Made by a program: the position numbers and the translations under genes
Notes under the pieces: model-generated
What the model saw: the letters and a program-made list of their open reading frames with translations, nothing else
What the model was told of the DNA's origin: nothing
The model's database searches: none
Shown here: one piece after another, positions 39,492-48,084 of the stretch
Layout: every line of letters begins with the position of its first letter
How positions within the stretch are numbered: the first letter of the stretch is position 1
Assembly (NCBI GenBank): GCA_024742695.1
Contig: JANSXY010000020.1
Location: 1-64,000, forward strand
Reading direction: 5' to 3'
Length of the DNA: 64,000 nucleotides
Origin: Paracoccaceae bacterium
GTDB lineage: Bacteria; Pseudomonadota; Alphaproteobacteria; Rhodobacterales; Rhodobacteraceae

Positions 39492-39830
39492 ATGATCGAA
39501 CGGATCGAGACCGGGCGGCGGATGAGCAAGATCGTCAAGCACGGGGGTGTGGCCTATCTGGCCGGTCAGGTGGGGGATGGCGCCACGGTGGCCGAACAGA
39601 CCCGCGATTGCCTGTCGCGGATCGAGGCGTTGTTGGCGACGGCGGGATCCTCGCCCGAGCGGATCCTCCAGGCGGTCATCTGGCTGGCCGATATCGACGA
39701 TTTCGACGAGATGAACGCGGTCTGGGATGCCTGGGTGCCCGAGGGTCATGCCCCGGCGCGCGCCTGCGGCGAAGCCCGGCTCGCCCGGTCCGATCTGAAG
39801 GTCGAGATCATCGTCACGGCGGCCTGCTGA
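39492..39830 (+). CDS. RidA-family reactive-intermediate deaminase
   Basis: A 112-residue protein of the RidA/YjgF/UK114 family. It has the VAYLAGQVG strand, the [21 protein letters not shown] helix and the C-terminal block with Arg in [12 protein letters not shown], which normally supplies the carboxylate-binding arginine. RidA proteins hydrolyse enamine/imine products of amino-acid-oxidising enzymes, which fits the dehydrogenase encoded directly upstream. GGAG precedes the ATG. Confidence 0.9.
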
Positions 39831-39887
39831 TCCGGGCCGGAGGGCGGCCGGACCGTACTCTGCCGGCGTCCTTCGAGTTCGTCTCCG

Positions 39888-40394: not shown

Positions 40395-40580
40395 TTTATC
40401 GCCGTACGACACACCTGATCCGACCACCTTATCGTGGCCATCAATCGCCAGAGTTGCCGCCTAACCCATTGTTTTATATATAGTCTAATTTCCGCGCGGC
40501 CAGCAACTTGGCCATTCTGCAACCGATTTGTGGCCATTGGGAAAATGCACGTGGTGACAGAATTTGTTGGCATTTGCCGT
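40395..40580 (+). repeat. Candidate transposase-binding repeats near the left end
   Basis: A degenerate motif about TTTGTGGCCATT occurs at least three times in the same direction (TTATCGTGGCCATCAA at 40428, AACTTGGCCATTCTG near 40505, ATTTGTGGCCATTGGG near 40526). A weaker copy is at 40561 (AATTTGTTGGCATTTG). Tn7-like ends carry such arrays of TnsB/TniA sites. No matching inverted copies were found at the right side. Confidence 0.35.
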
Positions 40581-40603
40581 CTCTGCCGCGCGCGGACAAA
40601 GAA

Positions 40604-40628
40604 GAAGGCCGCCTGAGTGGCGGCCTTC
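40604..40628 (-). terminator. Rho-independent terminator after tniQ
   Basis: Perfect 10-base arms (GAAGGCCGCC / GGCGGCCTTC) with a 5-base loop. Read on the minus strand it is followed by TTCTTTGT, so it ends the transposition operon about 45 bases after the tniQ stop. Confidence 0.75.
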
Positions 40629-40672
40629 AGTACGATGATTTGAGAACTTTTCTGTCCGAATGCGGCGGGGGT

Positions 40673-42520
40673 CTATGCAGCCTTTGGCGCCGGGAACTGG
40701 TCGATCCGATAGAGATCCATCCCGATCTCGTGTCGGTGAATGGCCGGGCGGGCACGGGTTTTCTTGAGATGGTGCAATAGCTCCGATGCCCCGCAGTTCT
40801 GTGTGTTGGCGATCTGCGGGACGGTCGCGAACCTGGCCATGAAGGTCGCGACATCATCTTCGCCGAACCGATGAAACTGGTGCGAACCGTTCCGTCCGAC
40901 CACGATCGTTGACGGGATGCGCGGTTCGTCTTCCCGTAGGACAAGGGCCCACCCAGTCGAACGCGAAACATTGAGGCGCCCGAACACTTCGCTGGCCCTG
41001 AGACCCTGCTTGCAGATCCCGATCTCCGTCCTCACTTCGTCGGGGTCGACGTGGATCGCCGCGATCCCGGATGCATGCGCCAGCCGCACGACCCTGGTGA
41101 GGAAACCTCCCAACACGAGGTGGAGGACATCGACACTGGTGGCCTTTGCTTTTTCCGCGGCCTTCGAGATCGGCACCATCTCCAGCGGAACAGATTGGAC
41201 AACGGTCGCGCAGTCATGCAGCTTTTCGAGGAACGCGCCGACTTCGCGAGAATCGACAGATTTCCGGGTCCGCCCAATGGCGGCAATGACCCGGTTCGAA
41301 ATCTGCCGAAGAAGGCCCTCATCGAGCAACTGCTCAGCCTGTGGGCGGGTGCAGTTCAGGGCGGTGCCGAGCGCGCTGACATGGATCTGCCTGCCAATGG
41401 AGTTGGCGAGTTTCTGACCTTCGTGTGCATCGAAGACGTGATGCCCGGTGACCTTTTCCTCAACGGGAATGAGGCCGTTGGCAGCAAGAACATTGCGAAG
41501 CGTCTTGGGGTGTAGCCGCGCCTCGGCGGCAAGCGACTCGACGCTGTGAAGGCGTCGCTCGGCCAGCGGGCCGCCAAGAACTGTGGTGCCTCCAGCGATT
41601 TCCATGGTGTCAAAGATGTGTTCGCGAAGGATGCGTTTGATGTCCCCCGGATCCTTGGTGCCCTTGGCGAAGGACAGCCACTCGTAGAGCGCGCCGAAGA
41701 CCTTTCGGCCGCCTGGTTTCCCGCCCTTGCCACGGAACTCGGCCTGGACGCCGTGAAGGGCTTCGCGAATTGCCGCTTCGCCGGCGGAAGTGACCGCAAA
41801 ACCCGTACGGCCAGCGCGGTCCCAATCCTGCATGCCAAGGGTCGCGGGCTGCGCCGCAGACCCGAACTCGAGAAGGAGGCCGAGCATCTCGGTCGCCCGC
41901 ACCGCCTGTTCTAGACTCTGGCTGTCGAGCCAGTCATGCGGTGTGTCACCGTCGAGCCGTTGCATCACGTAGACCTGCAGAGGGGACGGCGTCTGCTCCG
42001 GAGCGCATTCGATCAGGCGATCGAGATCGTCGCCGCGCTCCGGCACCCGACGGGCGAGCTCGTGGTACTTGTCATGCCATTGCGCCTTCTCCCGGGCGAC
42101 GAGGGCAAGACCGTGTCGCGGACAGGTGCGGACGGCACCCAAGGTCCAATCGAGACGCCCGCGCCGGGCGCTTCCCACGTCGGCGGCACCGGCGTCATCC
42201 TCGCGCAGGCAGGCGGGGCAGAACACCGTGTAGGGGCTCGAGAAGAACTCCGAACTCACAACGTTTCCGCGCAGGTTGAAACGGCGCTTGGCAACGCGGC
42301 ACGCGGCATTGCGATGCAACGCTTCGCCTTCGACGCCGGCAACCGCGGACAGGCGCTCCACGGCATCATGCTCGCCGCCGAGCAAGGCTTCGGGGCTGAT
42401 ACCGATGTCGCGCAAGAACGGAACGACCGAGCTGCGGATGTGGAAACTCGCGAGGCGGGTCGCGAAGGAGAGCGGCGTCTCTGCCGGATCGAAGGGGAGG
42501 AAGGGAAACAGAGCCGGCAT
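40673..42520 (-). CDS. tniQ: TniQ family transposon targeting protein (long, TnsD-like)
   Basis: A 615-residue protein starting MPALFPFLPFDPAETPLSFA, the usual TniQ N-terminus. A zinc finger is visible: FCPAC near residue 104 and RTCPRHGLAL about 30 residues later (C-x2-C...C-x2-H). At 615 residues it is longer than simple TniQ proteins (about 400) and nearer to TnsD, which recognises a fixed chromosomal site. The C-terminal half has several helix-turn-helix-like stretches, such as HSVESLAAEARLHPKTLRNV and LRASEVFGRLNVSRSTGWAL, that could bind DNA. ATG 42520 has GGAGG six bases upstream; the longer frame is not supported. It is the last gene of the operon. Confidence 0.88.
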   Translation of the reverse strand: MPALFPFLPFDPAETPLSFATRLASFHIRSSVVPFLRDIGISPEALLGGEHDAVERLSAVAGVEGEALHRNAACRVAKRRFNLRGNVVSSEFFSSPYTVFCPACLREDDAGAADVGSARRGRLDWTLGAVRTCPRHGLALVAREKAQWHDKYHELARRVPERGDDLDRLIECAPEQTPSPLQVYVMQRLDGDTPHDWLDSQSLEQAVRATEMLGLLLEFGSAAQPATLGMQDWDRAGRTGFAVTSAGEAAIREALHGVQAEFRGKGGKPGGRKVFGALYEWLSFAKGTKDPGDIKRILREHIFDTMEIAGGTTVLGGPLAERRLHSVESLAAEARLHPKTLRNVLAANGLIPVEEKVTGHHVFDAHEGQKLANSIGRQIHVSALGTALNCTRPQAEQLLDEGLLRQISNRVIAAIGRTRKSVDSREVGAFLEKLHDCATVVQSVPLEMVPISKAAEKAKATSVDVLHLVLGGFLTRVVRLAHASGIAAIHVDPDEVRTEIGICKQGLRASEVFGRLNVSRSTGWALVLREDEPRIPSTIVVGRNGSHQFHRFGEDDVATFMARFATVPQIANTQNCGASELLHHLKKTRARPAIHRHEIGMDLYRIDQFPAPKAA

Positions 42521-42548
42521 GTCAGGCCTCCGTCTGGAAATGACCGGA

Positions 42549-43505
42549 TTACTTCGCGCTCGGGCGCAGATTGATGGACGACCAGCGGGGCGCCATGAAG
42601 ACGTTCTCGGCAACCGGGCACCCTTCTCTTTCGAAGTAGGCTTCCGCGAAGTGTTCGATTGTCAGGCGGGAGGCGCCGCGCATCAGAGCCACCTCGATCG
42701 CCGCAATCATCTGTTCTACGCAAAGGCCGAAGCGCTGCTGACCTGCATAGGCAAGGCGTTCTACGAGGTCGCCCTGCTCGGGCCGATCCAGAGCAGCGGT
42801 ATCGCAGAAGTTGCCCAGAACCTTGGCCAGGACCTTTCGATCTGCAGCCGTCGAAACGGGCGGCAGATCGAAACGGGCGAAGCGACGCTTCACCTGGCTG
42901 TCCTTGCAGAGATCGTCCCAGAGTATCTCGAGGCCCGAGAGGACCACGATCACGGCTCCGGTTCCCTGCATGCGGCGCTTGAGGTGATTGAGGATCTCCG
43001 GAGCGTCGGTTTTACTTTTGCCCGCGAAAATGTCGTGGGCCTCATCGATCCAGAGAACGACGGTGCCGAGGAGAGCAAGACGGGTATCGACGTCCGCCCA
43101 GATCTTCCACGCCGGACGGTCGGAATGGATTTCCGAGTATCCGGTGGCCTTCAGGATTTCCATTCCGAGGCTCTTGATCGTGGCCGGGTTCGGCACACTG
43201 ACAGCCACGAGAGGCATCTGGGCAGCTTCCGACGGCTGCAGCGCCGGATGCTTCGACAGCGCGCGATGCACCAGCGACGTCTTGCCGCTGCCTGCAGTGC
43301 CGGTGAGGGCGATGCCGCGCGTCTCACCGGTTGACGTGAAGGTCACGGGGCGGCCCGTGAACCCGCCGGCCTCGTCGCGCATCAGCAGGCGGTCTAGCTT
43401 CGCGACAAACGCCCGGTCCCGTTCGAGAGTGATGTACTTTCCCATCACGGCGGCGATCGCATGCGGTGTGGTCTGTGCGGAAGGGCTGGCAAGGCTAGTC
43501 ATCAT
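42549..43505 (-). CDS. tniB: TniB/TnsC-like AAA+ ATPase, transposition regulator
   Basis: A 318-residue ATPase with Walker A GTAGSGKT, Walker B VVLWIDEAHDIF, a sensor region VIVVLSGLE and a candidate arginine finger in KRRFARFDLPP. TnsC/TniB proteins form a filament on target DNA, link the TniQ target selector to the transposase, and enforce target choice. Tandem ATGs at 43505/43502 overlap the tniA stop. The tniQ start follows 28 bases after its stop. Confidence 0.9.
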   Translation of the reverse strand: MMTSLASPSAQTTPHAIAAVMGKYITLERDRAFVAKLDRLLMRDEAGGFTGRPVTFTSTGETRGIALTGTAGSGKTSLVHRALSKHPALQPSEAAQMPLVAVSVPNPATIKSLGMEILKATGYSEIHSDRPAWKIWADVDTRLALLGTVVLWIDEAHDIFAGKSKTDAPEILNHLKRRMQGTGAVIVVLSGLEILWDDLCKDSQVKRRFARFDLPPVSTAADRKVLAKVLGNFCDTAALDRPEQGDLVERLAYAGQQRFGLCVEQMIAAIEVALMRGASRLTIEHFAEAYFEREGCPVAENVFMAPRWSSINLRPSAK

Positions 43506-45706
43506 TTATCTCCGATCTCGAACTCAGGTTCGTCCGGGTCATCGTCCTGATCGGGGCGATGTTCGGCACGAGTCGGACCTGCTGTCGTTGGAACGGGCCC
43601 GGAAACCGGCACAGGAGATTTCTGAAGAAACTCGTTCACGAATCCGTGATCATGGTCGGAGCCGACGGCGAACTCTTCGCCATAGGCTTTCTCGGTGCGA
43701 TGGCCATCGGTCTCGCCCTCAGAAGGTTCGATCCTGAATCCGATGTGCCGGCGCGCTTCTTCACGGTCGATCCGGTCGGGCGTCCAGTAATCGGTGAGCA
43801 GACCGATCCGCCGCATCGCGTTGCCATTGATTGCCTCGATGTCTGAAATGGCCTGGAACACGACATCCTCGTCGAGCGCGGCCTCCTGTTTGTAGCGGGC
43901 TGCCAACGCGGCGCGGGCCATGTTCCAGGTCTGAGCCCGGACGCCACGAAAGCGTGCAAAAACAGAGGGGACGTCGATCCACTTTCCGTTCAGCTCGACC
44001 GCGATTGCCCCGATGTCCTCACTGTACCAGCGCACCTTCATTTTGTTGTCCCGCATGTGCGGGAACCAGGCGGCGAGTTGATCGGAGTGATAGCGAACCC
44101 CCAGGACGGTGATCCCATCCTTTTGAACCGTCCGCTCCATCCGCGTGCCAAACGCCATTCGTCTACGGCGGAGGTCAGCCCCCGGTGCCGCCCCGTAACG
44201 CGCGGTCAGCCGGTCCCAGCAATTGGCAGGCGTTTCGCCGTCGAGGCCACTGTGCATACGCCGATGATAGATATCGGCGACCCAGCGGGTCAGGGCTTCG
44301 CAGAAATCATCGGCGGTCAGCGCCGCGCGGCCCTTGGAGTCGTAATCCCCTCGCTGGATCGAGTTGCTGAAGGTTCGACCACTCAGCCGCTCCATCAGGT
44401 TGATCGACATCGTCCGAAAGAATGACTCGATGCGGGCCCGCATCTCCGGCAAGCCGCCGGGTGCATGCATGAGCGGGATTCCAAGATCGCTCGCGGCGAT
44501 CTGCACGTCATAGGCGGCATACTCCGGACCCAAGTCGGTCACGATCAGTTCGGGTTTGCCGTGCATGTGCCAAGGAGTGAGCGCGCCGACTGCGTCGGTC
44601 CAAACCCCCTTGTCCTGCATGATCATGTCGAGGACCTGGATCGTGGCCATCGTATTCGCTGTGCGCGAAAGCTTCATTCCGAGAATGCATCGGGTGGTGG
44701 CGCAGATCGCAACCGTCAGAAACCAGCGCTTCGTCGATCCTGTCAGTCCGAGGAGCCGCCGTTCTTTCTCCGACATTTGTTCCAGAAGGCCAGATGCCGT
44801 CATGAGCGTCAGCACGTCGACCCTGCATGTGTCGATCTCGACGCGTTCGAGCGGGCGCGTGAGGTCGAGCCCCGTCCCCACAGGCGCGTGTTTCATCCTT
44901 GCCCTGTCGGCGCCCTCACGGATCAGATCGCAAAGGTACGGGTCGAGGCGCAGGATTTCCTGGCGGACGGTTTCGCGCGTAGGACATGCCAGATCGGGCT
45001 CGCCCCGCATCCGGCGTTCCTCGTTCGCATTCCGGATCGCTCGCCTGACATCGTTATAGATCGCCGCTTGGGTAGGGCGCAGTTCAGACATGTAGCCGTT
45101 CACGCATTTCGTGAGGATAGCCAATGTCTGCGGGCAGAGACGCCGTTTCCGGTAGCCACGCTCGTCGACATGATCAAACAGGCCACCGACGCCGCGTCTT
45201 TCGAAGGCTGCGAGCCACCGACGCAGCGAGCGCGCCGAAAAATCGGGAACGATGGCGCTTTTTTCGATTTCGCTGCCGCTCTTAAGTATTTTGGCTGCAG
45301 CACCTGTGATCGCGTTATTCTCTGCCGTGATGGATGCGTCCGTGCGTTTGACCTTTCCTTGTCTTTCGAGGTCTAGGAAGGCGCGAACCACAGCCTCCCT
45401 GCCGCGCGCCGCCGCGTGTTTCGAAGGTGGGAGCGAAGAGAGCATCTGCTCCGGCATTTCGAGCCGGGCCTTGGCGCTCAGGGGAAGCAGGGCATTGCGC
45501 TCGTGGCTGACCCGCCCGAGGCTGACCATCCGGGCCATTTCGCTTCGCGTGTAGCTTATCGCGACCCCTTCTCCATCGAGACGGCGGAAGACGTATCCTG
45601 CGTCGGTCGCGTCGATCATCCGGTAGGCCACGTCGGAAATAGTGACCGTGTCGTACTTGCCGAAGGCATAGTTCGGCGTCTGCGGGCTCGGAGAAAAATC
45701 CAGCAT
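43502..45706 (-). CDS. tniA: TniA/TnsB-like DDE transposase
   Basis: A 734-residue transposase with an RNase H-like core. The catalytic triad is seen as Asp in VEIDTCRVD, Asp in ELIVTDLGPEYAAYD and Glu in MRARIESFFRTM. The N-terminal third carries helix-turn-helix-type DNA-binding regions, and a Mu-type C-terminal beta-barrel region follows. It cuts the 3' ends of the element and joins them to target DNA. ATG 45706 overlaps the stop of the TnsA-like gene (TGATG) and has GGAGG upstream, so the two are translated together. The C-terminus is very acidic (DQDDDPDEPEFEIGD), likely the TniB contact region. Confidence 0.92.
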   Translation of the reverse strand: MLDFSPSPQTPNYAFGKYDTVTISDVAYRMIDATDAGYVFRRLDGEGVAISYTRSEMARMVSLGRVSHERNALLPLSAKARLEMPEQMLSSLPPSKHAAARGREAVVRAFLDLERQGKVKRTDASITAENNAITGAAAKILKSGSEIEKSAIVPDFSARSLRRWLAAFERRGVGGLFDHVDERGYRKRRLCPQTLAILTKCVNGYMSELRPTQAAIYNDVRRAIRNANEERRMRGEPDLACPTRETVRQEILRLDPYLCDLIREGADRARMKHAPVGTGLDLTRPLERVEIDTCRVDVLTLMTASGLLEQMSEKERRLLGLTGSTKRWFLTVAICATTRCILGMKLSRTANTMATIQVLDMIMQDKGVWTDAVGALTPWHMHGKPELIVTDLGPEYAAYDVQIAASDLGIPLMHAPGGLPEMRARIESFFRTMSINLMERLSGRTFSNSIQRGDYDSKGRAALTADDFCEALTRWVADIYHRRMHSGLDGETPANCWDRLTARYGAAPGADLRRRRMAFGTRMERTVQKDGITVLGVRYHSDQLAAWFPHMRDNKMKVRWYSEDIGAIAVELNGKWIDVPSVFARFRGVRAQTWNMARAALAARYKQEAALDEDVVFQAISDIEAINGNAMRRIGLLTDYWTPDRIDREEARRHIGFRIEPSEGETDGHRTEKAYGEEFAVGSDHDHGFVNEFLQKSPVPVSGPVPTTAGPTRAEHRPDQDDDPDEPEFEIGDK

Positions 45707-46425
45707 CAGATGATCCTCCGGCGCACCCGGCTCTCGGGCTCGATCCGTCCGGGATCGGCAAGTTCGAGTTCCCGCGACCGGACCAATCGCACGACCGAGC
45801 GAAACCCTCTGCCCGGCCAACCGGAGGCATCTACGACGTCGGCGATCTTCACCGGGCCCGCAATCGCGGCAATCACCCGGCGGACCGCCGCATCAGGCTC
45901 AGGGTCCGGTTCGCGTACGCTGTGGATCAGCCCGGCATTGTAGATCTCGACCGGATCGAGGTCATTGGCCGTCATCAGAGAAACGCGGTGCGCGAAATCG
46001 GGCGTGACCTGGCTTGCAAGCCAGCTCAGCTCCATCCGGAACTCGGCATCGGTTGCCTTGTGCGGGGCCTTCACCACCACGGCGATCCGAGTGCCGTCGC
46101 GAAGGGTGATCCGGAAGTCGAAGAAGTGCTTCCGGGCCTTGCCGGCGCGATCAACCCAGTTGAACAGCACCTGGTTCTCGACATTGGTTACATCGTGCCG
46201 GGCCAGCATGACGAGCGCGACGAGCCGTTCGGTATTGCTTTCGAATGCGAACTCGCGGCCTTCATCTTCTCCGACCACCATCTTGCCGGTGAAGTGCCGC
46301 TTCTTGCCCATCGGGATCCGCCGCGCTGCATCCCTCGGGCGCGGGAGGCTGATGCTGCCATCAGGTTCCATGTGCATGTTTTCTGGTCCCTCTTCGGGTT
46401 TCGGTCCAGGCTCCGTCGAGAACAT
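45706..46425 (-). CDS. TnsA-like endonuclease-fold protein, active-site motif altered
   Basis: A 239-residue protein directly upstream of and coupled to tniA. The fold elements of TnsA are visible: Glu in FAFESNTERLVALVMLARHD, then NVENQVLF, Asp in KHFFDFRITLRDGT and Lys in RIAVVVKAP. In TnsA the residue two before the lysine is Gln or Glu (x-K of the PD-(D/E)xK fold); here it is Val. TnsA normally cuts the 5' ends so that transposition is cut-and-paste; this variant may be weak or inactive. A C-terminal winged-helix-like part follows. Starts at 46425, 46377 or 46371 are possible; an AGAGGG site lies before 46377. Confidence 0.75.
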   Translation of the reverse strand: MFSTEPGPKPEEGPENMHMEPDGSISLPRPRDAARRIPMGKKRHFTGKMVVGEDEGREFAFESNTERLVALVMLARHDVTNVENQVLFNWVDRAGKARKHFFDFRITLRDGTRIAVVVKAPHKATDAEFRMELSWLASQVTPDFAHRVSLMTANDLDPVEIYNAGLIHSVREPDPEPDAAVRRVIAAIAGPVKIADVVDASGWPGRGFRSVVRLVRSRELELADPGRIEPESRVRRRII

Positions 46426-46459
46426 CTTTTCGATGAGCCGGACTCGGAAACTTCCTCAG

Positions 46460-46499
46460 GAAAGAATCTTCCAGAGGCCTGATCTCATGGGATTCTTTC
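46460..46499. repeat. Inverted repeat before the TnsA-like gene
   Basis: Perfect 9-base arms GAAAGAATC (46460-46468) and GATTCTTTC (46491-46499) with a 22-base loop lie between the unknown gene 46581-47024 and the TnsA-like gene. It could be an operator for the transposition genes or a terminator for the gene upstream. Confidence 0.45.
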
Positions 46500-46580
46500 T
46501 TGTGCTCTGGGCTGTGACACCCCGGCCTGCCCGTACTCCGCACATGCGGTCGGTCGCGGCTAGGCAACGATCCCAGCCCC

Positions 46581-47024
46581 CTATGACGAAAGCAGGCGCT
46601 TGAGCGCGCGGTCGGCCGCAATGCGATCGAGGGCGGCATCCCTGGTGGCGACGAAGCCTGCAAAGGTTCGCTGCAGGTCCAGCAGAGCCATTCCGCGCGG
46701 GCTATAGACCGGGCATTCGACTACATCGCCTTGGACACCGTGCTCATCGCAGTGGGTTTCGACGAAGTACCGTTCTGTGCCGATGATCTCGGACCTCAGG
46801 TCGTCGTCGAGAATTCCGGCGATGGCAGCGAAGGAGCCGTCATCTCGCGGGTCGAATGGCTTGCGGTCGGCAAGTCGGCGCAACGCCCGGTCCGCGATGG
46901 CGAAATCACGGCTGTTGCCACCCAGATAGACTTCATGTGCCCTCCGGGCGAGTTCCCGCCCGAGCCTCACCGCCATGGCGGCAAGCTCGTCGAGATCCGG
47001 CTTTGGTGTTTGCGCTTGGTTCAT
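46581..47024 (-). CDS. Unknown protein, 147 residues, in the transposon
   Basis: A mostly helical, charged protein starting MNQAQTPKPDLDELAAMAVR. Its ATG has a GAGG site six bases upstream and coding looks real on this strand. I do not recognise the family. There is one Cys/His-containing stretch (ETHCDEHGVQGDVVECPVYS) that could bind metal, and a C-terminal helix-rich part. It is the gene just upstream of the TnsA-like gene, separated by 155 bases with an inverted repeat, and may be cargo or an accessory factor of the element. Confidence 0.6.
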   Translation of the reverse strand: MNQAQTPKPDLDELAAMAVRLGRELARRAHEVYLGGNSRDFAIADRALRRLADRKPFDPRDDGSFAAIAGILDDDLRSEIIGTERYFVETHCDEHGVQGDVVECPVYSPRGMALLDLQRTFAGFVATRDAALDRIAADRALKRLLSS

Positions 47025-47101
47025 TTGAGACCTCTTCGTTTGCCGAGCCTCTTTCGGCCGGCGTCAAGACGCGGCCCCTTTGGCAGGAGCCGGGTGAGGT
47101 A

Positions 47102-47497
47102 TCATGCAGCGGAGGGACGGACCGCTCGGGTCGGGCGGCCGATCGTGTCCTCGACCTCGGACAGCAGATCTTGGAGCATGTCCGTCAGTAGGCAGATCAG
47201 CTCGATGTCCTGCGACGCTGGGTCGAGTGCAGGGAGAAACCCACCATTGGGGTCGTCCGGGTCGGGAATATCCTCCAGCGCCAGCAACCGATGCAGCGCA
47301 TGGAGATCCTGCTTGAGGCGACGGTCGATGCGCATGCATCCGTCGAGCCGGATCGCGCAGGATACGACCCTCGCCTCGGCGGCGGCTCCGCCAAGCAATG
47401 CGGCGGCCGTCGCCAGCTGGTGGCCGTGCTCCGCAAAGAAACAGCGCGCCCGGGACAGGCCGCAGCAGCGGATATCGTTGGAATGGACATCGAACAT
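47102..47497 (-). CDS. Unknown protein, 131 residues, in the transposon
   Basis: A small protein starting MFDVHSNDIRCCGLSRARCF. It has an N-terminal hydrophobic/Ala-rich helix (HQLATAAALLGGAAAEARVV) and an acidic helical C-terminal half (DIELICLLTDMLQDLLSEVE). The start at 47497 has an AAGAG-like site. Other frames here are less protein-like. It is the outermost gene of the element, 77 bases upstream of the other unknown gene on the same strand. Function unknown. Confidence 0.55.
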   Translation of the reverse strand: MFDVHSNDIRCCGLSRARCFFAEHGHQLATAAALLGGAAAEARVVSCAIRLDGCMRIDRRLKQDLHALHRLLALEDIPDPDDPNGGFLPALDPASQDIELICLLTDMLQDLLSEVEDTIGRPTRAVRPSAA

Positions 47498-47834
47498 TGG
47501 CTTTGCTCTTCGTCGTCGCGCTGCACCATCGCGGCAGCTTCAAGCAGGCCCCCGTGCCCTCCTCTCCCTGGGCTTCTCATCGGTTCATTCAATAGATTGG
47601 CCGGTATCCGCAAAGGCGAAGCGGAATACTGAAGTTTTTTTCGTGCCAGTGATTGACGGCGCGAATAGGTCCGGGGGCGCGGATCGATCAAGCGCTCTTC
47701 ACCAAGATCGAGCAAGTCCAGTCATGCAGGTTGTGCGCCTGGAAAGTGAAGCCCGGCCGCCGCCGCAGGCGTGCCGCCAGATCTCGGGCCTTGCTCCCAG
47801 AAGCTCGTGCTCGAGCAGGCGCACGGAGCCTTCC
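47498..47834. other. Region between the transposon genes and the SDR fragment
   Basis: No gene is recognised. The promoter of the outermost transposon gene and the right end of the element should lie here. A T-run at about 47635 stands out. One frame continues from the SDR fragment at right but loses similarity to the family near 47835. Confidence 0.35.
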
Positions 47835-47957
47835 TGTGCGGATCTTGCTGCCTTCCATCGCCGCTTCCATCCGCAACGCCTCCATGAAGTTCTCCACGAA
47901 CCACTTGGTCCCGCCGTAAACGGCGGCGCCCGGATAGGCCTTAACCTGCGCATGGCC
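47835..47957 (-). pseudogene. Internal fragment of a short-chain dehydrogenase gene
   Basis: Read on the minus strand, 41 codons give GHAQVKAYPGAAVYGGTKWF and VENFMEALRMEAAMEGSKIR. This is the catalytic-helix region of a short-chain dehydrogenase: Tyr and Lys of the Y-x-x-x-K motif are in VYGGTK. The usual upstream Rossmann part and the following TTTIYPAAI-type strand are missing. The 5' side ends within about 15 bases of the palindromic element at 47971, so the gene was cut there. Confidence 0.6.
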
Positions 47958-47970
47958 TCGGCGGGCGGGT

Positions 47971-48084
47971 TCTATGTGTGAAGTCTCAGGAGGTTGTTCA
48001 TCCTTCGGGGTCCTCGGCTGGAGTTTGGCGATTGCAGCCTAACCCCGAACCGGGTGAACAACCTCCTGAGACTTCACACATAGA
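47971..48084. repeat. 114-bp palindromic MITE-like element with perfect 30-bp inverted arms
   Basis: The arms 47971-48000 and 48055-48084 are perfect reverse complements over 30 bases. The outer part of each arm reads TCTATGTGTGAAGTC. Inside the 54-base centre a second pair (TTCGGGGT and ACCCCGAA) continues the stem. If the element runs from TGTGTGAAG to CTTCACACA, it is flanked by TA on both sides, as for insertions at a TA dinucleotide. It encodes nothing. The right arm overlaps the last codons and the stop of the serine hydrolase gene. Confidence 0.7.

Follow-up and report, generated by a model that had tools for sequence, protein, structure and literature searches.

The stretch of DNA analysed here (the window, 64,000 bp) comprises positions 1–64000 of contig C29 (74,266 bp) in the 4.16-Mb, 67-contig genome of a Paracoccaceae bacterium, and it carries a Tn7-like transposon headed by two small open reading frames (ORFs), ORF1 and ORF2. 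The gene order on the minus strand is ORF1, ORF2, tnsA, tniA (TnsB), tniB (TnsC) and tniQ (TnsD-like), and the features are listed in Table 1. All six genes lie at the place and on the strand given in the original prediction, which was made from the sequence alone, and the operon overlaps that it described are seen as an ATGA at both the tnsA/tniA and the tniA/tniB junctions. TniA, TniB and TniQ score above their Pfam cut-offs; together with the TnsA-like gene, the transposon ends and a 5-bp target-site duplication, these matches bear out a Tn7-like element. The combination of Tni-type proteins with an added TnsA had been described as a mix of two kinds, but it is not unusual, as the Tni names are Pfam labels for homologues of TnsB, TnsC and TniQ. 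No direct repeats of at least 22 nucleotides (nt) lying within 300 bp of each other occur across 40–64 kb, so this interval holds no CRISPR array, as had been predicted.

Table 1. Coordinates of the transposon features in the window.
Feature	Position	Strand	Details
5-bp target-site duplication outside the TniQ-side end	40411..40415		ACACC on +, GGTGT on −; equals the 5 bp outside the nrdJ-side end of the same genome
TniQ-side (left) transposon end	40416..40545	+	TG terminus; TGGCCA sites at 40435, 40509 and 40531
TniQ / TnsD-like target selector, 615 aa	40673..42520	−	PF06527 1.5e-15; ATG at 42520
TniB / TnsC AAA+ ATPase, 318 aa	42549..43505	−	PF05621 2.8e-19; Walker A GTAGSGKT
TniA / TnsB transposase, 735 aa	43502..45709	−	Mu-transpos_C 6.1e-07; Tn6677 TnsB 5.7e-24; D330-D429-E465
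TnsA-like endonuclease, 239 aa	45706..46425	−	NF033179 9.5e-09, below cut-off; E66 and D103
ORF2, 147 aa, second gene of accessory pair	46581..47024	−	Same place in L032/L034, 54–56% identical; pLDDT (predicted local distance difference test) 92.4
ORF1, 131 aa, first gene of accessory pair	47102..47497	−	Same place in L032/L034, 40–45% identical; pLDDT 81.5
Upstream region similar in relatives	47498..47630	−	ACCGGCCAAT..., GCTTGAAGCTGCCGC...; alignment of 4 loci

The closest solved relative of TniA is the TnsB protein of Tn6677, and its residues D330, D429 and E465 (numbered from a 772-aa frame starting at 45820) are invariant among eight aligned proteins. The putative TnsA is assigned from a sub-threshold match to NCBIfam NF033179 (35 bits against a cut-off of 110; the Pfam TnsA match is only 0.16), from the place and overlap of its gene, and from E66 and D103, which are invariant among nine aligned proteins. 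Both sets of residues are those known to be catalytic in these families; they are kept, and all four tns genes are open. At E ≤ 1e-10, 66 of 295 family genomes contain TniA; the two closest matches (loci L032 and L034) are each 57% identical, and a search of viral contigs gave no relative. TniQ has a single match in the whole genome.

The location of the element is suggested by its ends. The left end, in which a motif scan places 25 nt between the terminus and the end of the first TGGCCA, is similar to ends found beside nrdJ, the gene for B12-dependent ribonucleotide reductase, in related loci (nhmmer E 3.5e-05). In the same genome, contig C15 has a family-type end with GGTGT outside it, 20 bp beyond the nrdJ stop. 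This end and that of the window are equal at 16 of the 25 terminal bases, and they share a 29-bp block whose score of 36 was reached by 0 of 1000 shuffles. Ends with TGGCCA-type repeats were recognised downstream of nrdJ in 18 loci, all of which had been chosen by an ORF1 or TniA match, and by eye most of these ends also have 25 nt between the terminus and the end of the first site. Furthermore, equal 5-bp sequences flank both ends in three of six other genomes with paired ends examined (CTTGT in L108, CCTAT in G348 and GCTGA in G231), and ORF1 lies inside the element in all three. In one of them, p420573 of Paracoccus seriniphilus (L108), tnsA-tniA-ORF1-ORF2 reaches the 3′ end of nrdJ and tniB-tniQ stands on the far side, with cargo between them that includes a type I restriction system.

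Given the GGTGT/ACACC match, the similarity of the ends, the single TniQ and the relatives at nrdJ, the nrdJ 3′ end is the most likely attachment site of the element, with 40416 as the far end; the window end and the C15 end most likely belong to one copy. The span of 40395–47497 first reported is therefore not the extent of the element: its left boundary is at 40416, its other end lies outside the window, and it most likely extends beyond that span and is split by assembly gaps. A fixed attachment site had been proposed from the CCCH zinc finger of TniQ. The site itself is borne out, at the nrdJ 3′ end for the family and most likely for the window copy, but the CCCH cysteines are the ordinary TniQ zinc knuckle, and alone they do not point to a fixed site. 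Faure et al. (2023, PMC10293859) regard a TniQ/TnsD longer than 400 aa in dual loci as indicating direct targeting, in keeping with the 615-aa protein and its nrdJ site. In the literature searched, which included that paper and PMC8649781, nrdJ is not named as an attachment site of Tn7-like elements. The 3′ flanks of nrdJ in other loci (L084-L093, L104, L107 and L120-L148) show Tn7-type ends of several sequence types, and such ends stand in tandem in L033, L037 and L108, suggesting that one site received insertions in succession.

The two genes at the head of the operon form their own two-gene family, a pair that is previously undescribed. The window proteins match no Pfam family, and PHROGs and Pfam searches with alignments of ORF1 and ORF2 gave nothing consistent. 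AlphaFold2 predicts four helices for ORF1, and helices with a long beta hairpin for ORF2, so that both are modelled as small, mostly helical proteins. In structural comparison with VIA-align, the Z scores reached no more than 7.2 for ORF1 and 8.8 for ORF2, values that common helical bundles also reach. Avd of diversity-generating retroelements is listed for both proteins, and 2gsc for ORF2; this is a weak lead only. The ratios of non-synonymous to synonymous substitution for four pairs of ORF1 genes, taken from the computed values, are 0.26, 0.08, 0.56 and 0.19. Of 394 family genomes, 55 have ORF1 and 19 have ORF2 by profile (E ≤ 1e-5). Among 20 stretches round the best TniA matches, tblastn found ORF1 in three (L032, L034 and L035) and ORF2 in two (L032 and L034). 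Profiles also detected ORF2 in L035 and, close upstream of tnsA, in L040, as well as a weak ORF1-like gene behind tniQ in L046. The conserved region upstream of ORF1 is a probable operon promoter/operator. A gene of ∼65 aa diverges from ORF1 in two relatives (L034:14387-14581, minus strand; L032:16095-16259, plus strand) and was not found in the window.

The genomic settings of ORF1 were sorted for 93 modules, derived from the places matched by the ORF1 profile; these include the window and a few finds in neighbouring sequence, and exclude plasmid loci as well as L071 and L073, which were fetched but lack ORF1. A Tn7-like gene lies within 10 kb in 14 modules, and nrdJ or a Tn7-type end within 5 kb in a further 18 (together 32). 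A pair of tyrosine recombinases is found within 6 kb in 22, which brings the modules with Tn7-like genes, nrdJ/Tn7 ends or such a pair to 54 of 93. Another integrase occurs within 8 kb in 10, although these are not independent because the integrase queries were drawn from the same loci. By comparison, 11 control windows from ORF1-bearing genomes contained no match to a Tn7-like gene, tyrosine recombinase or integrase; nrdJ with an end was present, by chance, in one of them. ORF2 is also present in 40 of the 93 modules by profile, and a different small gene follows ORF1 in several others. Where the pair adjoins Tn7-like genes, it is upstream of tnsA (L032, L034 and L068) or of tniB-tniQ (L069), or downstream of tniA (L035, L072 and L108). 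The link of these genes to such elements, put forward in the original prediction as the point on which it could fail, thus holds: they adjoin tns/tni genes elsewhere, and ORF1 lies inside three elements paired at both ends.

In a tree of ORF1 (102 rows), the window falls in one group with L034, L032 and L068 (support 100/97), all with the arrangement ORF1-ORF2-tnsA, and Tn7- or nrdJ-linked rows fall into several separate supported groups. The tree requires 11 changes between Tn7/nrdJ and other contexts, compared with a mean of 28 and a minimum of 21 in 500 shuffles, although with few columns and long branches its single forks are unsure. The pattern points to repeated exchange of ORF1-ORF2 between Tn7-like and tyrosine-recombinase elements. 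The original prediction had suggested that the pair may be core machinery. As it is lacking beside the operon in most distant Tn7-like relatives, and present at tyrosine-recombinase cassettes and at loci with neither, it appears instead to be a portable accessory module. In the cassettes (L066:4349-9228, L067:4736-9198, L102, L100 and others) the order is a helix-turn-helix (HTH) gene, a large tyrosine-recombinase-like gene, a second recombinase-like gene, ORF1 and ORF2; the Pfam integrase scores are often only marginal.

Taken together, we consider it probable that the window holds part of a Tn7-like transposon inserted at nrdJ, with its ends on C29 and C15 and a portable ORF1-ORF2 helper module. 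In Tn7, cutting and joining are the work of TnsA and TnsB, TnsC forms the bridge, and TnsD selects the site. By analogy, TnsA and TniA would together cut the donor DNA and join the ends, TniB would link the transposase to the target, and the long TniQ, acting as TnsD, would direct the element to ∼20 bp past the nrdJ stop with a 5-bp duplication. The window would then contain the left end and the operon, and the right end would be that at nrdJ on C15. ORF1-ORF2, first in the operon, would most likely help or regulate recombination, as a partner in target selection or complex assembly.

Several observations weigh against this reading, some touching the insertion and others the gene pair. The right end is on a different contig, and both C15 and C29 end in a multi-copy element that we take to be IS21-like, each of whose two end types occurs on five contigs. 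Joining C15 to C29 through this element was considered and set aside: by eye the bases beside the two insertion-sequence ends form no duplication, and each end type recurs on five contigs. Profile and pairwise searches between ORF1 and 48.1 kb for a family-type end gave nothing above shuffles, and by eye a fragment like a short-chain dehydrogenase lies ∼260 bp upstream of ORF1. These features, with the little cargo left at the C15 right end, would suit a dead remnant, in which IS21-like recombination moved or cut the left end and operon from nrdJ and the right part was lost. Such a history is quite possible, though less likely than not; against it, the four tns genes are open with their catalytic residues kept and both ends, with equal 5 bp, are still in the genome. 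No empty site was found when the nrdJ downstream regions of 30 relatives, own genome included, were compared with the left flank of the window: the DNA after nrdJ is not conserved, and the three short chance-like blastn matches and the G+C-rich noise from tblastx were not used. In three of the six other genomes (G221, G230 and G009) the ends have no matching 5 bp, perhaps owing to the presence of several elements in tandem. Since tandem elements do occur at nrdJ (L037, L033 and L108), the GGTGT match could be due to chance, in which case the window element would sit elsewhere, for instance next to the serine hydrolase gene at 48074, and C15 would carry a different element. This is improbable, because a 5-bp match at fixed places is expected ∼1 in 1000 times, 16 of 25 terminal bases and the 29-bp block are common to the two ends, and the genome has a single TniQ.

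For the gene pair, the adverse points are its lack beside the operon in most distant Tn7-like relatives, the 29 of 93 modules that are near no recombinase or nrdJ marker, and the lack of a fold match indicating function (for ORF1 and ORF2, Foldseek gave none at E ≤ 0.001 and none under E 0.1). With the variety of recombinases met beside the pair, and with toxin genes adjoining it in two plasmid loci (PemK/MazF in L111 and RES/Xre in L112), the first two of these suit the view that ORF1-ORF2 is cargo with no part in transposition, for instance a pair serving addiction, defence or regulation that gains from whichever island carries it. We regard this as a serious possibility, somewhat short of an even chance and nearly as likely as a helper or regulator. 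The positions of the pair speak against it: ORF1-ORF2 heads the tns operon in its own clade (window, L032, L034 and L068), directly follows tniA in L035, L072 and L108, and in the tyrosine-recombinase cassettes often directly follows the recombinase pair. Its role is best read as that of an optional helper or regulator. A wider proposal, that it is a two-protein helper or target selector serving both DDE (Tn7-like) and tyrosine recombinases, exchanged many times in this alphaproteobacterial family with nrdJ as a shared landing site, is put forward tentatively and seems to us rather unlikely.

Comparison with known systems places the element close to Tn7 and its relatives, with which it shares TnsA, TnsB, TnsC and TnsD/TniQ, terminal arrays of transposase-type sites, a 5-bp duplication, and a fixed site past a housekeeping gene. 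Tn7 inserts past glmS, whereas the window family is at nrdJ and carries ORF1-ORF2; its relatives p420573 and G348 also differ from Tn7 in having tnsA-tniA and tniB-tniQ at opposite ends. Tn5053/Tn402, with TniABQR, shares the Pfam names TniB and TniQ but lacks TnsA, while the window has TnsA and a long TnsD-like TniQ. The tyrosine-recombinase cassettes resemble, in gene layout, Tn554-type TnpA/TnpB/TnpC, in which two tyrosine recombinases are followed by small proteins. The window has no match to the cassette proteins, and its pair does not lie beside HTH, tyrosine-recombinase and TnsF-like genes of the Tsy kind. According to Faure et al. (2023, PMC10293859), TnsF is common to the Tn7-like Tn6022 and to Tsy, an element with HTH and tyrosine-recombinase proteins; as for ORF1-ORF2, an accessory thus occurs in both kinds of element, and the cassettes with ORF1-ORF2 look like relatives of Tsy elements. 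The same paper describes TnsF as having zinc fingers and a recombinase-like domain and as targeting comM. In contrast, Pfam sees no such domains in ORF1 (131 aa) and ORF2 (147 aa), the site here is nrdJ, and the proteins differ. No relation of ORF1 or ORF2 to TnsE or TnsF was detected through Pfam families, Foldseek matches under E 0.1 or VIA-align, where the Z scores are only middling.

Other features lie in the flanks. Right of 47.5 kb are transport and catabolic genes, a stretch that is either cargo or derived from rearrangement. By eye, the minus strand at 47760-47965 reads like a short-chain dehydrogenase fragment covering the catalytic part (YGGTKWFVENFMEAL) and truncated on the side of ORF1. 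The serine hydrolase gene has at its 3′ end a 33-bp inverted repeat with a 48-nt spacer (47971-48084), a part of which recurs intergenically at C28:35166-35241. This repeat was rejected as a transposon end, since it lacks TGGCCA sites and partly recurs elsewhere in the genome. At 39711-39851, the 3′ end of a RidA-like gene has a 141-bp copy, 88% identical, on C39 beside an ATP-binding cassette transporter gene.

These findings illustrate that reading a single contig underestimates the size of such an element. Should ORF1-ORF2 take part in transposition, two mechanistically different classes of transposon would have one more accessory in common, for which no link to TnsE or TnsF has been detected, and the published view of target selectors as modular and exchanged would gain support. 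Insertion tools for Rhodobacterales could use the nrdJ site as a fixed landing pad.

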